Source: Lineolata rhizophorae
Lineage: Eukaryota; Ascomycota; Dothideomycetes; Lineolatales; Lineolataceae
Assembly (NCBI GenBank): GCA_010093515.1
Contig: MU001683.1
Location: 655,949-719,948, forward strand
DNA length: 64,000 bases
Reading direction: 5' to 3'
Shown: one piece after another, positions 37,664 to 45,664 of the stretch
Position numbering within the stretch: position 1 is the first letter of the stretch
Layout: each line of letters opens with the position of its first letter
Made by a program: the position numbers and the translations under genes
Notes under the pieces: model-generated
Databases searched by the model: none
Seen by the model: only the letters and a program-made list of their open reading frames with translations
Told to the model about the DNA's origin: nothing

Positions 37664-40227
37664 CTATGCGATAACCTTCTCCTTGCACTCGATCCTGAAA
37701 TCTCTGTTAATACGTGGAGTTCGAAGAGACTAGAATAAGGATAGCTTACCCGTACTTCTCCTTCAACTCCTTCATTAATGGATCGTTGATCTTGGAGTTC
37801 ATTGGCGCGAGAATACCCTTGTCGGAGATCGTGCCATCAAGGACTTGTTTGACGGCTATGACCCAGGACGTTAGTAAACCCTCTTTTCAGAAGTGAGAGA
37901 CGCTGTCTGAGACTCGGAGTGGTCAATGGTGAAACTTCCGGTGGCAATGTATCTTCGCTACTTGAGAATCATTGTAGCCCCGGGAGGAATTTCACAAAGC
38001 GGGGAGACTTACCGACACCACACGGTATGCCGACTAATTTCGCCATTGCCGAGTAGCCTCCGGATCCAGTTGGGGCACCGTACTCGCAGAGAGTAGAAGT
38101 TCTGGTCTCCCTACTACCGTCCTTGTTCTCGATCTCGAACTTGTGTTGAAGCATCTTAAAACCCGGGTGTTAGCATTACTCATCTTAGAACATATTGGGT
38201 GCCGAGACAAAGCTTACCACTAAGTCACGCTCACCCTTCTCGAACTGCATCTTTTCCTCAAGAGTGGCGCACAAAGTATCCAGCGGATTTCCTTTCGGGG
38301 TAATCTTTGAGTCGGAGAAGATACCAACTAGGCCGTGGTGTCAGCAGGGCTCTTCTAAGAAAGTTTGGGGAGCTGGGATGATGTATCTAGTTTTGGTGCA
38401 TGTTCAAGTTCCCTCGCGGATTTACACCACTGACAGTCCGTAACTCCACCTGAAAGAGACCGGAAGGTGACTATGAAGGTGCATAGGGTTGCTTACGCCA
38501 CTTGAGACCTGCCACCACTCGATTCTTCTCATCATTATCCTTGAAGGTCGTTTTGGATGAAATTGCCCATAGGAGATCGTTCTCGCTTGATGAAGTCGAA
38601 CCAAGGATCTTCTGAGTGGCCTCTTTCCAGGTGATTGACTCTTTCAGGAAGCTCTGGTCCTTGTCACTGAGAAAGCCAATATCGACCAAAACCTTGACGA
38701 ATTCTGGGAATCCTTGATATCTGAGGGTCTGAAACCCTGCGGTATTAGCATTGCATAGACTGGAAGGGGAAGATGAATGATGCCTTACACCACGGATGAT
38801 AGTCTCGGCTTCTGGGATATTATAGCGTTCCTTGTATGGGGTTGAATCACGGTTGGGATATGCGACGAAAGCGAAGCCTAGACGCACGTAAGGATGAGGT
38901 ACCAGTATACCATATACTATTGGGAGAGATGCCTCGGGCCAACTTACCTGGGTAGATGTGGTAAGGCTTGGCAGTAGCCATCAAGTCTTCGACCAGTAGT
39001 GTTAGCGTAACTCTAATTAAGAGGATTTGGAGCAAAGATATCATACAAAAGCCCAGGCTAGGCAGGTTCTGGGCCCCGGACAACCTAAAGTAGGAATTGG
39101 AAAATCCGTACGGCCCAAAACGGGAAGTGATAGGGAGCGCAGAGTTGCTTACCGTGACCAGCAACGTTGACAATCTTCCCTCCTTGGTAGAAGCTTGCAG
39201 AATTTCTGAGAGCGAGCAAAACTCCACGGGATCTTTAGTCCTGTAGCGTTAGCCTTACTCCTTCACGAATAATTTGGGTGTTAAGGCAGTCTCTTGAATT
39301 CATGTCCATGTAGAAGCGCCCAGCTGTACTCAGACAACCCCAAAGAGAACATTATACGCCTAAGAGAGCCTAGAAGAGGAAATAAAAAGGTCGGCTGGTT
39401 ACTTACGACCAAGAGAACCTTCAACCCCGCGGCATTAGCATTACTCTTTAAGAAAGATTGGGTGTCAAGACGGGCTAGAAAGGCGAATATGACGGCATGC
39501 AGATTTGCTTACTTGTAGCCCAATGGGTTTCCGGAGTCTGAGAATTAGCTTTAGTCGTCATATATATCATCTATATGCTTACCTTCTGGAGCTGGGAGAC
39601 CTCCACAGTATGACAAGAATGATATGATTTTTCCTCCCGCCTTATGCACACTTTCGATCGTAGAAATTGCGTACAGATGATCGATTCCAGGGTCGAGCTG
39701 ACAATTAGTACCTTAAATTCCAAGAGGTACAAACGATATTTCCAACTTACACCAATCTCATTCATCACAGTGATGCCCGCGTCCTTTGCCTGTTGTTCGA
39801 GCTCGAGCATGGCTGGCGAAACATAACTCGTGGTTACAACATTCTTCTTGTTTCGAATCGCGGACTTGATGACGGTAGCGTGGAAAGTGTATGGGATTAA
39901 GCTGATGACAAGATCGTGCTGTGCTACTGCAGCGTCGAGCGCATTGTCGTCGGTGGCATCGAGGGAAATTGGTCGTGCGAGCTTGACGCCTTCTGAGAGC
40001 TTCTTTGCGTTCTCGAGAGTTCTGCAGGCTAGAGGATGTTAGTGAAGACTGTAAAAGCCATATCGCGCAAGCGACTCACCAACGGTGACCTCGATGCCAG
40101 CGTCGCTCAAAAGATCCAGCGTAGGCCTCGTAACGAAGCCAGAGCCGCTGAAATGCTTTCAGTATGTGGGTCACCTTTCCAATGGTCGACTTGACACTTA
40201 CAGCATCAAAACACGCTGGGGAGCCAT
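37664..40227 (-). CDS. LYS9: saccharopine dehydrogenase (NADP+, L-glutamate-forming); saccharopine reductase
   Basis: This enzyme joins aminoadipate semialdehyde and glutamate into saccharopine, the penultimate step of fungal lysine synthesis. Fourteen exons give 450 aa: 40227-40202, 40147-40080, 40028-39751, 39697-39583, 39537-39513, 39418-39407, 39232-39153, 38986-38948, 38877-38789, 38728-38497, 38327-38218, 38154-38013, 37855-37750 and 37694-37664. The summed length is an exact multiple of three. Visible are the Rossmann start (MAPQRVLMLGSGFVTRP), NEIGLDPGIDHLYAIS, FLSYCGGLPAPEDSGNPLGY, AKPYHIYPGFAFVAYPNRDS, YNIPEAETIIRGTLRYQGFP and the end YGIECKEKVIA. Exon 6 is only 12 nt (GTTCTCTTGGTC) and codes the conserved KFSWS junction. 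Thirteen introns in 2.5 kb is far above its neighbours. Splice sites at the last two exons are chosen by family similarity. Confidence 0.93.
38155..39512 (-). repeat. related introns in LYS9 (introner-like family)
   Basis: On the coding strand the 3' ends of five introns resemble each other: 39512-39419 (GTAATGCTAATGCCGCGGGG then TTGAAG), 38788-38729 (GCAATGCTAATACCGCAGGG then TTTCAG), 38217-38155 (GTAATGCTAACACCCGGG then TTTTAAG), 39406-39233 (GTAAGGCTAACGCTACAGG then ACTAAAG) and 39152-38987 (GTTACGCTAACACTACTGG then TCGAAG). Introns 39512-39419, 39406-39233 and 38217-38155 also share ACACCCAAT or GCACCCAAT about 15-25 nt upstream of that block. The shared block exceeds what branch and acceptor consensus alone would need. 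The 5' halves differ in length and sequence. Confidence 0.6.
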
Positions 40228-40540: not shown

Positions 40541-42514
40541 ATGGCGACCGTCTCGTCCAATGAGTTTGGGGTCCAAGATATACCGCAACACAACAAATCC
40601 TTCTACGACGACGATCTTCGCAATACCCCTCCCAAGACAATTCGACTCCTCGGCATCCACCCAGGGCTCTTTGCCGACCGACTCGTCTGCTGTCTTCAAA
40701 CCGTATCCTCCCTGTTGAAGGATCACCAACAGACTTACCATGCTCTCTCATACTCGTGGACCGACCAGCCGGGCTGGAAAAACATCAGTCTAAATGGAAA
40801 GTCCGATTTCAGGATCGGCAAAAGTCTCTTTAGCGCCCTGCGTCGACTTCGTCTCCGTAATGACTTGCGATGGGTTTGGACGGACCAGATTTGTATTAAC
40901 CAGGCTAATCTCGAGGAGAAGGACGAACAAGTTTCTATGATGGGGGACATCTATCGCCAGGCTGACTTGGTTTGCGTATGGCTGGGACCATGTGGCCATA
41001 CTAATCGAGAAGCCGGTGAGGAAGAGGCAGAAGACTGTCTTGCTCACGTCGTCCATAAAGATGGTACGGTCGATTTTGGCCGCAGGGGATTGGAAGTCGT
41101 GCAATTATGCGAGGCCCGAGTTGAGGATAAGTCGCAGTGGTGGTGGCGGATGTGGGTCGTGCAGGAGATCGTGCTGGCCAAGGAAATAAAAGTCCTTGTC
41201 GGCGCGCACGAATTCCCTTCGCTGACAACCGCCGTGAAAGCCCTAGGGAAGTCCTGGATCGACAAAGAGCCGGGTCACGTTGCCCGGGGAATCACGAGGC
41301 GTCAATGGCAACAAATGCCGAGTAGACGGGCTCGAAACGATGCGTACATACGACTTCTATCTCTTCACACCACCAAGGGCGCCGTTTTAAGGGGGGTAGG
41401 GAACGTGTATGACCTACTACACCTGACAGCGGCGCAACATGCTGGCTTAGCCAAAGATAAAATCTATGCCCTGCTGGCATTGGTGGATAAGAAACGGTGC
41501 AGCTTCGATATCGAGGTGCAGTATAAGAGACCTGACGAGGAGGTCTATATGGATGTCACTGAGTATCTTTTGAACGAGAAAAGGAGCCTAGATCCGTTGT
41601 ACGAACATTGGCCAAGGCGAAGGTCGCCCTCATGGGCATTGGACTTTAGTACCGGGCTGCGGAAAGCCGAGTGCTTGGTTTTGCACGTGCGACCAAAGTT
41701 GCCGTCGTGCCACAATCAAGCGTCACATCCTAATGAGGAGCCCAAATGTCGTGCCAGCAGGGACGGAAGCAACCCGGTTTTCCGTCGAGAGGGTGGATGT
41801 CTACTCGTGCGTGGTTTTCGATTCGCAATCGTAGTCAGCACTGTTCAATGGGATACATCCAGCCTTATCGTTAAGGACAACAGCGAGATAGAAATGGTCA
41901 GCGTCGGGGATATCCGCGATGGCAAAATCGAGGTTATGTCGCATGCGGATGAAGAAGTTGATCCGTCGGATAAGTTGGGGACATTAACGCTACGCTGGCT
42001 AGAAGACTTCTATTGGAAGAAAAAAGAGCAATGTCACCCGGGGCTAGCCTCCTCCGACCAGAGGGGATCGCAGAAAGCTTGGTTGTCTTCCATCGACCAG
42101 ACTGAACAATTCGCTCGAACAATCACCGCAGACAAATACCTGCATGACAAGCATGGGAAAGAGATCTCCACTGGGGACTTCTTGCCACATCAGCCTGGCT
42201 TCCAAGATCACAAGCGGTCGTTCGACTTTCGCTCGCAAGCCTACGTCACACTAGCGAATAGAACCTTCTTCGCCACCGACCTTGGCCTATGTGGAATAGC
42301 TGGGAGCACTGAGGTTCAACCGAGAGACATTGTCGTCGTGCTTTCGGGGGCGAGCATGCCCGTCATACTTCGACCGATGCCTTCTGGCGAAAATGATGCT
42401 ACGTCGGGCTTCCAGTTGATAGGAGAGTGTTTCGTCTCTGGAATTATGTACGGTGAGCTTATGGAGGGAGACGGAAGCATTCTGTGGGCAGAAGAGGATT
42501 TTAGACTCGAATAG
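40541..42514 (+). CDS. heterokaryon-incompatibility (HET) domain protein
   Basis: Intronless ORF of 657 aa. Residues about 65-215 contain the three HET blocks: YHALSYSWTDQPGWKNISLN, then LRWVWTDQICINQANLEEKD with QVSMMGDIYRQADLVCVWLG, then WWWRMWVVQEIVLAKEIKVL. HET domains are found in fungal proteins that trigger cell death after fusion of unlike strains, and in many paralogues of unknown role. After the domain comes the usual long helical region with GNVYDLLHLTAAQHAGLAKDKIY, and a C-terminal segment with PRDIVVVLSGASMPVILRP as in many HET proteins. No NACHT, WD40 or ankyrin module is present. It is intact, with no stop or shift, in contrast to the decayed genes at the right end of the window. 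Confidence 0.93.
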   Translation: MATVSSNEFGVQDIPQHNKSFYDDDLRNTPPKTIRLLGIHPGLFADRLVCCLQTVSSLLKDHQQTYHALSYSWTDQPGWKNISLNGKSDFRIGKSLFSALRRLRLRNDLRWVWTDQICINQANLEEKDEQVSMMGDIYRQADLVCVWLGPCGHTNREAGEEEAEDCLAHVVHKDGTVDFGRRGLEVVQLCEARVEDKSQWWWRMWVVQEIVLAKEIKVLVGAHEFPSLTTAVKALGKSWIDKEPGHVARGITRRQWQQMPSRRARNDAYIRLLSLHTTKGAVLRGVGNVYDLLHLTAAQHAGLAKDKIYALLALVDKKRCSFDIEVQYKRPDEEVYMDVTEYLLNEKRSLDPLYEHWPRRRSPSWALDFSTGLRKAECLVLHVRPKLPSCHNQASHPNEEPKCRASRDGSNPVFRREGGCLLVRGFRFAIVVSTVQWDTSSLIVKDNSEIEMVSVGDIRDGKIEVMSHADEEVDPSDKLGTLTLRWLEDFYWKKKEQCHPGLASSDQRGSQKAWLSSIDQTEQFARTITADKYLHDKHGKEISTGDFLPHQPGFQDHKRSFDFRSQAYVTLANRTFFATDLGLCGIAGSTEVQPRDIVVVLSGASMPVILRPMPSGENDATSGFQLIGECFVSGIMYGELMEGDGSILWAEEDFRLE

Positions 42515-43030: not shown

Positions 43031-45664
43031 ATGCCGGCCGACCGGCTCCTCGGCACCCTCCTCCGCTCGCTACAGACCTACTCCGACCAGCAAGACACAC
43101 CACGGTACGTCCTCCAACTCCCCAACGCGCTCGTGTTCTCCGCGCACCTTCTCCTTCCTTCCCTCGCTTTAATCAAACCTTCCTTACTAACATTCGCCAC
43201 AGCCTCCTCTCCACCGCCTCCACACTCCTCACCACCCTCACCAATCCCCTCAACATCACCCTCCTAACGACCCAACTCCTCCTCTCCCCCTCCCTCTTCC
43301 CGCCCTCCTCCTCCTCCCTCGCCGCCAGCCTCCGTCTCCTCGCCGCTTTCCACACCGCCGCCCGCACCGTCCAGCGCCACGAGCGCCACCTCGCCGCGCA
43401 GCGCCGCCTTCTCCGGCACCAGCGGCACCACCACCACAGCAGCGGCGCTGGCGCCGGCGGGCCGCGCGGAGCAGGCCGCGCCGGGTACGAGGGCCCGGGC
43501 CCGCGGGGCGCGGCGCCGGTGCCGGGGCTGGAAGAATGGGTACGCGCCGTGGTGAGGGGCGCTGAGACGGACAGGGCGGAGCGCTGGAAGCATGTGCTCG
43601 TGCTCGGGGGCTTGCTGGTTGGGTTTGAGAGCGGAGTGCGGGAGGAAGGGGAGCTGGAAGAGCTGGAGGAGGAAGGCATCGGTTTGTTGGGCGCGGGGCT
43701 GAGGAGTAGGTTGGGGGAGGCGTTGGTGAGGGCGGGGAATTTGGCGTTGAGGGAAGGAGGAGGAGCGGAGTTGGGGGGGATGACGGTGGCGCTAGTTTTG
43801 AACCATGCGTTCCCGTATTTAGAAGATGGGGAGAGAGAAGCGGTGGAGTATGATGTGAGTTTTGAATTTGCCTTTTCTTTTGCGTTGTTCTCTGAAGGCG
43901 GAGGTGTCATACGTTCCTATATCGAGCAGAATCGTGCTGATTTGGCTGCGCGTAGTTGCTTCTTCCTGTTCTGATCAACGCGACCTTTTTCTCCTCGGAA
44001 GGTCTGCAGTCGGCGTATTTCCTAGGGAGTATGGATCTCGACGTCAAGCAGGTGCCAGGGAAGAAATTCAACTGGCCGAAGTCGTCACAATCCTTCAATC
44101 ACGTCCAGCGTATTCTATCGCAACCGCTGATGGCGTCCTTGGGGCCGCTTTCACGTCTCATGGCCCATGCTGTGGAGAACGTGCGGGACTCGTGGTTGAT
44201 CCAGGCTGCTACCGAGGATATTGCGGCGTTTGCGCGCTCCATGTTGACGCAGTGGCGCCAGAACAAGCTCTCGGAGATTGATGTCTCAGAAGAGGCTGTG
44301 TTCTTGCATGGGGAAGCGCTCAAGGAGACGGTGCCTGTTCTGTGGAGACTTCTGCGATCGACTATGTTTGCGATTGTGATCATACTGCGGGCTGTTGTGG
44401 GTAGGCTAATAGGAGATGGTACCCTGGCTGCCGACGGAGGTACATAGTCCATACTCCACCATCGATTTTAAGAGCTGTATGCTGACACCCCCGGCCATCA
44501 GTCTCCCCCCACCTTGTTACCCAAGTCCTCCACACCCTCCGTGGCATCTATTTCATCTCCTCCCGTCTGGGCCCTTCCTCCTTTTCACAATACACCTTCA
44601 TCTCCTTTGCCGCCATCGACATCCTTACCCAGTATCCGCAGCAATCCGACGCCTTCATCCACGCCATCGCGCCTTCGTCCCTCGGCTCGATCCCCTCACA
44701 CCCGCTCGACCGCACCCTCGACCTCTTCTTCCTCAACACCGTCGAGCACTTCACCTTGGCCCTCTCCCCGCAAGCCACCGACACCCTCGTCCTCCCCGCC
44801 GCGCGTCCCTACCTCACCGTCGCCAGCGCCGCCGCCAGTGCCCCCGATCGCCCATCCTCCTCGCTCCTACCCCTCTTCGAAGCCGCACACGCGGCCGTCC
44901 TCGCCCTTCTCTCTGCGCCCGCTGCCGCCGAGCAGCTCGGCGCCCCGGGCGGCGGCGGCGGCGGCGGCGGCTTCCTCCCTTTCTACGTCGACACCCTCTT
45001 CGCCATGTTCCCCGGTGGCCTGTCGCCGCGCCAGTTCCGACTCGCGTTCCGCACGTTGATGCGGGTCGCGGCGCCGCCGGCACCGCTGGCCGTCAGGCAG
45101 CCCGAATTCGCGGAGGTGCTGGTCGAGATGGTGCGCCGGCGGGCGGAGACAGCGGGGACGGAGCCGCTGGCCGTGCCGGGCGGGTTGGGGGCGGGGGTCG
45201 AGGGGAGCGGCGACGCTGCTGCCGCTGCCGCCGACGGGAGCGCGGCCTCGTCGGACGAAAGGACGCAGAACCAGCAGCAGGGCGCCAGGGCCCAGGCGCA
45301 GGGCGACGCCTCGCTCACGCCGCAGTCGGTCCTGGTGCTCGCGCTCCTCGACGCGCTGCCGTTCCTGCCGCCGCCGGCGCTCGACGAGTGGCTGCCGGAG
45401 GCGGCGCGGCTGGTGCGAAGCGTCCGGCCGGAGCAGGCGCGTGACGCGTGCGCGGCGAGGCTGTGGGAGGTGCTGTTGGGCGGAGAGATGGATCCGGAGA
45501 GGGCGCTCGTGTGCGTAGCGTGGTGGGAGGGGAGGGGCGGGAGGGACTTGGTTTTCGGGGAGGCGGAGGGGGACGGAGTTGTGGCGGTGGGGAATGCGGC
45601 GGGGGATGAGGGCTTGATGATGAGTGGGGGTTTGCCGGTTAGGGAGAGGGAGAGTAAGCTGTGA
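43031..45664 (+). CDS. PEX8: peroxin-8 (peroxisomal matrix import)
   Basis: Pex8 sits on the inner face of the peroxisomal membrane and links docking and RING complexes of the import machinery. Exons 43031-43104, 43203-43854, 43956-44439 and 44502-45664 (790 aa); introns have GTACGT, GTGAGT and GTACAT donors and keep frame. The protein ends RERESKL, a canonical PTS1 targeting tripeptide, which is a hallmark of Pex8. Other family features are the start MPADRLLGTLLRSLQ, a PLNITLLTTQLLL stretch, the LDRTLDLFFLNTVEHFTLAL helix and the FYVDTLFAMFPGGLSPRQFRLAFRTL segment. Low-complexity inserts (HHHH, Gly-rich, EELEELEEEG) lengthen it. The first part is weakly conserved, so exon 2 boundaries rest mainly on splice signals. 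Confidence 0.88.

Follow-up and report, generated by a model that had tools for sequence, protein, structure and literature searches.

The origin of new introns has long been an open question. Reverse splicing of an intron into its parent gene is one proposed source, put forward more frequently than it has actually been observed. Among the described systems closest to the case presented here, genes carrying two introner-like elements (ILEs) have been reported (PMC4457414), and internal symmetry or stable folding is given as a feature of such elements in fungi (PMC8469720). A survey of introners dropped intron pairs from genes with similar proteins (PMC9860276), a filter by which sister introns within one gene would probably be lost. 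For intron transposition, a review names the mRNA from which an intron has been spliced as a possible target and places most suspected events at previously intronic positions (PMC3443670). Among the titles listed by literature searches, none dealt with sister introns in LYS9, the saccharopine reductase gene. Here we analyze LYS9 in a 64,000-nucleotide (nt) stretch of contig C14 of the mangrove fungus Lineolata rhizophorae, a dothideomycete of the order Lineolatales whose 31-Mb genome is assembled into 48 contigs. This whole stretch is referred to below as the window, and positions are counted from its first letter.

Sister introns in LYS9

Several of the 13 introns of LYS9, at least five, look by their sequence like diverged copies of one intron. 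The gene extends from start to stop codon over positions 37664..40227 of the minus strand and gives a clean reading of 450 amino acids in 14 exons. Its product is identical (100%) over the whole length to a public record named Lineolata rhizophorae (P0001), and the solved saccharopine reductase 1e5l aligns to it, residues 1-450 on 1-450. In the public record, 19 further residues, encoded upstream of 40227 on the minus strand, precede the conserved start of the 450-residue model. By protein search the genome contains one LYS9, the sole other match being a 40% stretch on contig C8.

In leave-one-out searches, a profile built from five of six candidates (introns 5, 6, 7, 9, 10, and 11) was run against both strands of 264 kb, with those five masked. 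Each omitted intron ranked first in the 264 kb, and five of them were significant, with scores of 36.0 to 17.3 bits; the top score outside LYS9 was 8.9 bits. Three of the significant members, all on the minus strand like the gene itself, are of full length: intron 6 (39233..39406, 174 nt; 36.0 bits, E value of 9.6e-10, match at 39234-39406), intron 10 (38328..38496, 169 nt; 19.2 bits, E value of 1.8e-4), and intron 7 (38987..39152, 166 nt; 17.3 bits, E value of 4.9e-4). The other two appear internally deleted, namely, intron 5 (39419..39512, minus strand, 94 nt; 29.9 bits, E value of 7.6e-8) and intron 11 (38155..38217, minus strand, 63 nt; 25.8 bits, E value of 1.2e-6), which agree at 78% over 55 nt. 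Intron 9 (38729..38788, minus strand, 60 nt) shares only a block near the 3' end and, although ranked first, is a marginal member at 3.1 bits (E value of 12). The initial annotation had described this 3' block in introns 5, 6, 7, 9, and 11 and the motif CACCCAA in introns 5, 6, and 11, and both are present where claimed. Its set of five members holds for introns 5, 6, 7, and 11, whereas intron 9 is only marginal and intron 10, which had been missed, belongs to the family. The acceptor is AAG in 4 of the 13 introns (5, 6, 7, and 11), all of them family members, and CAG or TAG in the remaining nine, intron 10 having TAG.

The likeness is not confined to the 3' end. It is strongest around the branch site, the 5' ends are common to introns 5, 7, and 10, and in the profiles the similarity covers nearly the entire length of introns 6, 7, and 10. 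In all five significant members the match ends at most 7 nt from the splice site on either side. The introns of the family have homologous sequence in other introns, with no exon sequence carried along, and inspection of their exon flanks revealed no evident likeness. Folding of the 13 LYS9 introns was ordinary (z scores of -0.85 to +2.11), without the stability described for ILEs. Inverted-repeat scores were likewise ordinary for introns 5, 6, 7, 9, and 10, and that of intron 11 was reached by 5.6% of controls. Special folding, pairing of the 5' end with the branch block, and inverted repeats were accordingly rejected as features of the family, since nothing unusual was seen in any of them.

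Splice consensus contributes to every profile score, and the control introns share that consensus. The same leave-one-out procedure was run on predicted control introns, grouped by sixes into 25 sets of matched length; it was silent in 149 of 150 trials and gave 0.3 bits in the other one, and for the remaining seven LYS9 introns no match was reported. When the 13 LYS9 introns were ranked by pairs together with 243 predicted control introns (some of them false because the predictor is weak, its list having retained 6 of the 13 known LYS9 introns), the pairs 5-11 and 5-6 came first and second of 32,640. We thus find the likeness to exceed splice consensus, as initially claimed. Further LYS9 pairs ranked 11, 26, 31, and lower, intermingled with control pairs. 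A profile of introns 5, 6, and 11 alone had introns 7, 9, and 10 as its best three matches (7.2, 4.3, and 3.5 bits), none of them significant, and a shuffle test also placed three pairs outside the six-intron family (3-13, 4-11, and 8-9) at z scores of 3.7 to 4.6.

Searches for copies outside LYS9

Genome searches were performed with patterns derived from LYS9 itself, which strongly decayed relatives would escape. The exact block had one match in 31 Mb, located in LYS9 (control, 0). All matches were in LYS9 for the block with up to one mismatch (3 of 3; reversed control, 2), a longer block with up to three mismatches (1 of 1; control, 0), the bipartite pattern CACCCAA...TAANGCTAAY (3 of 3; control, 0), and a 5' motif with up to one mismatch (3 of 3; control, 3). 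A looser bipartite pattern had four of its six matches there (control, 1). BLAST of introns 5 and 10 against the genome recovered, in each case, only the query itself. With the block relaxed to two mismatches there was no genome excess (70 matches versus 86 in the reversed control), and a genome-wide introner family was therefore rejected. The proposal of such a family in the initial annotation is unsupported, the tested motifs being almost exclusive to LYS9.

The searches yielded no convincing copies outside LYS9, apart from one weakly similar intron in a neighboring gene. This candidate intron (44401..44501, plus strand) resembles intron 10 at 8.9 bits (E value of 0.22), and the reading frames on either side of it fit. 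The two align over about 60 nt with a score of 35, compared with 29 for its best score against other predicted introns, and a motif drawn from both was found in only those two places (control, 1). The statement that introns of neighboring genes lack the resemblance is corrected to that extent. Fragments of the gene carrying this intron that were scanned had no Pfam match. Of the sites off LYS9 matched by the looser pattern, the C10 site is intron-like by eye and the C4 site is not, and neither reaches a score of 28 against any LYS9 intron. To the right of LYS9 lies a 657-amino-acid open reading frame (ORF) with a HET (heterokaryon incompatibility) domain (40541-42514, plus strand).

Intron positions and origin of the gene

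The positions of introns 5 and 6 are common to several fungal classes, as judged from the slips that relatives' proteins show at the micro-exon between them. This exon 6 of the gene model (39407..39418, minus strand) is 12 nt long and encodes FSWS. Among 119 relatives compared, P0075 (Xylariales sp. AK1849) and P0117 (Ptychographa) skip exactly these four residues, and P0012 (Tricladium) lacks them together with flanking residues, ten in all across the micro-exon; the three proteins fall inside a 34-row clade that also holds the Lineolata protein. At the position of intron 12, P0117 and P0036 (Usnea) diverge into residues starting with GK, the expected reading of an unspliced GTAAG, and at that of intron 13 the protein P0017 (Gaeumannomyces) diverges. 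We infer that these annotation slips in relatives reflect introns, and the positions of introns 5, 6, 12, and 13 are probably older than Lineolata. Recent gain at all five sites, as first envisaged, is unsupported, since those of introns 5 and 6 occur across classes.

The gene itself looks, from its protein sequence, to have entered the Lineolata lineage by horizontal transfer from another fungal class. Lineolata LYS9 is 90.7% identical to that of Paecilomyces variotii, 90.2% to that of Tricladium, and 89.3% to that of Letharia; for comparison, the values are 78.4% for Paecilomyces-Aspergillus, 78.4% for Tricladium-Hyaloscypha, and 79.6% for Letharia-Lasallia. In a tree of 55 proteins it falls into a class-mixing clade of 18 rows (support of 98/94), and in a quick tree of 120 proteins into the class-mixing clade of 34 rows (support of 98), with its nearest inner grouping poorly supported (33). 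Among the best 120 of 8000 scored proteins, none of the 97 organism-named ones, Lineolata excepted, is from a dothideomycete, and for a ThiF-domain gene 11 kb from LYS9 all 41 organism-named matches are, by our own count and class assignment. A query with residues 40-150 of P0078 listed members of Eurotiomycetes, Leotiomycetes, Lecanoromycetes, Sordariomycetes, and a few smaller classes. The clades formed by Pezizomycotina LYS9 sequences cut across classes and orders, a pattern suggestive of either repeated transfer or hidden paralogy of this housekeeping gene.

One LYS9 record listed by the same query, P0259, which is absent from the tree, is named Elasticomyces elasticus, a dothideomycete. 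It may be misnamed or represent another transfer, because it scores among Exophiala-like sequences. Carriage of LYS9 by a Starship element was rejected: DUF3435, the domain that marks Starship captains, matches 11 genome stretches, none of them on contig C14. These matches lie on contigs C18, C27, C31, C17, C21, C9, and C1, and several contain stop codons; Starship captains or remnants are possibly present in the Lineolata genome. A scan of genome contigs for LYS9 DNA of the relatives returned one bacterial locus only (Flavobacterium, 35%) and nothing on viral contigs.

Proposed copying within LYS9 and competing explanations

The best explanation, to which we assign a probability of roughly 0.43, is that a single intron of about 170 nt was copied within LYS9 and gave rise to introns 5, 6, 7, 10, and 11, and perhaps 9, and that the gene was probably transferred, introns included. 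By the most likely route, an excised LYS9 intron would have inserted itself by reverse splicing at other exon junctions of LYS9 mRNA; this mRNA would have been reverse transcribed, and recombination of the cDNA with the LYS9 gene would have replaced old introns or added new ones. Some of the copies would later have shrunk through internal deletion, and LYS9 with its introns would have moved horizontally into the Lineolata lineage, before or after the copying. Such copying accounts for splice-site-bounded copies in one gene together with old positions, because introns 5 and 6 at positions common to other classes are what is expected if introns were replaced at existing junctions. What stands of the introner-like copying proposed in the initial annotation is that several introns look copied from one and are bounded by splice sites; the genome-wide family does not. 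It is conceivable, though we would lean against it, that the intron is an introner private to its gene, recopying into or over other intron positions of LYS9 and moving with the gene between fungal classes. If so, such families would escape introner surveys in which similar introns are dropped when their proteins are similar too.

Several points weigh against copying within the gene followed or preceded by transfer. The leave-one-out E values are optimistic because the six introns were selected after the sequence had been viewed, and intron 9 remains below significance (E value of 12). There are candidate relatives beyond LYS9, namely, the intron at 44401-44501 (E value of 0.22) and the intron-like C10 site. 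The excerpted text of the 2012 review PMC3443670 lists no in vivo demonstration of intron transposition. As to the transfer, neither tree contains a dothideomycete LYS9 besides that of Lineolata, and hidden paralogy of LYS9 is a possible alternative. The GC content at third codon positions (GC3) of LYS9, 0.59, is within the range of local ORFs (0.67 when pooled over 33 long ORFs in 264 kb, 7 of which are at or below 0.58), and codon composition was rejected as proof of transfer. Finally, the Lineolata data alone do not separate copying within the gene from a selected splicing signal or from import of several copies.

Import of this kind is the main competing explanation, and we regard it as rather doubtful: LYS9 would have gathered ILEs in an introner-rich former host and then moved to Lineolata, where there are no other clear members. 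At least five splice-site-bounded family introns in a gene that looks transferred are consistent with such a history, as is the occurrence of ILEs in Dothideomycetes, where they degenerate quickly (PMC4457414). At the same time, at least five elements in a coding sequence of 1.35 kb would be dense, given that genes with two ILEs are already notable in PMC4457414, and the positions of introns 5 and 6 are common to several classes. If this explanation is true, an intron invasion that took place in the former host is still recorded in the transferred gene. Whether the copies arose in this way or within LYS9, genome surveys probably overlook intron families inside a single gene.

We think it improbable that the 3' block is instead maintained by selection as a branch-site or acceptor element specific to LYS9, and not through recent copying. 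Such an element would fit the peak of similarity around the branch site and the AAG ends confined to introns 5, 6, 7, and 11, but the likeness reaches the 5' ends of introns 5, 7, and 10 and nearly the whole of introns 6, 7, and 10, and there is no unusual folding. Slightly less probable still is that an introner of low copy number is active in Lineolata itself and has left decayed members in other genes. The intron at 44401-44501 would be such a member, being the best match off LYS9 and sharing with intron 10 a motif exclusive to the two; against this, there is no genome excess, its E value is insignificant, and the positions of introns 5 and 6 probably predate Lineolata. Chance likeness combined with branch and acceptor consensus is very improbable. 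It would fit the branch consensus CTAAY being part of the block and the short block pattern, whose matches at up to two mismatches show no clear enrichment in the window (8 matches versus 4.6 expected, with 8 of 100 shuffles reaching 8), but it is largely refuted by the leave-one-out searches with matched controls, the pair ranks, and the bipartite motif restricted to LYS9.

Comparison with known systems

The LYS9 family resembles fungal ILEs in consisting of spliceosomal introns that are alike end to end and occur at several places in an ascomycete host, and it differs from those described in PMC4457414 in that its five or six copies have diverged, nearly all belong to a single gene, and show no extra folding stability. 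Introners have also been defined as at least four introns alike to near both splice boundaries (PMC9860276), which describes five of the LYS9 introns. The family lies outside the further definition of that source, by which such introns are linked in an all-versus-all BLAST at E values of at most 1e-5 between hosts dissimilar in protein; among the 13 LYS9 introns the best pair, 5-11, had an E value of 1.8e-6 in a database of these 13 introns only, no other pair fell below 1e-5, and the host is one and the same gene. With the sister stwintrons and cropped sister introns of Hypoxylaceae (PMC8469720) the family shares similar introns, internally deleted forms, and patternless exon flanks. The Hypoxylaceae introns are spread genome-wide and carry terminal inverted repeats, whereas the LYS9 family is nearly restricted to one gene and has no standout inverted repeat.

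The route proposed for LYS9, reverse splicing into the intron's own mRNA, and the previously intronic positions are like those of intron transposition as reviewed in PMC3443670. That review, in its excerpted text, tabulates 14 events, in Mycosphaerella and Oikopleura, and notes none with at least five sister introns in one gene, unlike LYS9. At least five sister introns, of which two occupy old positions, and the lack of an excess of relatives across the genome would make LYS9 a natural test case for the origin of new introns. The case is a puzzle of intron copying within a gene rather than an invasion of the whole genome by introns.
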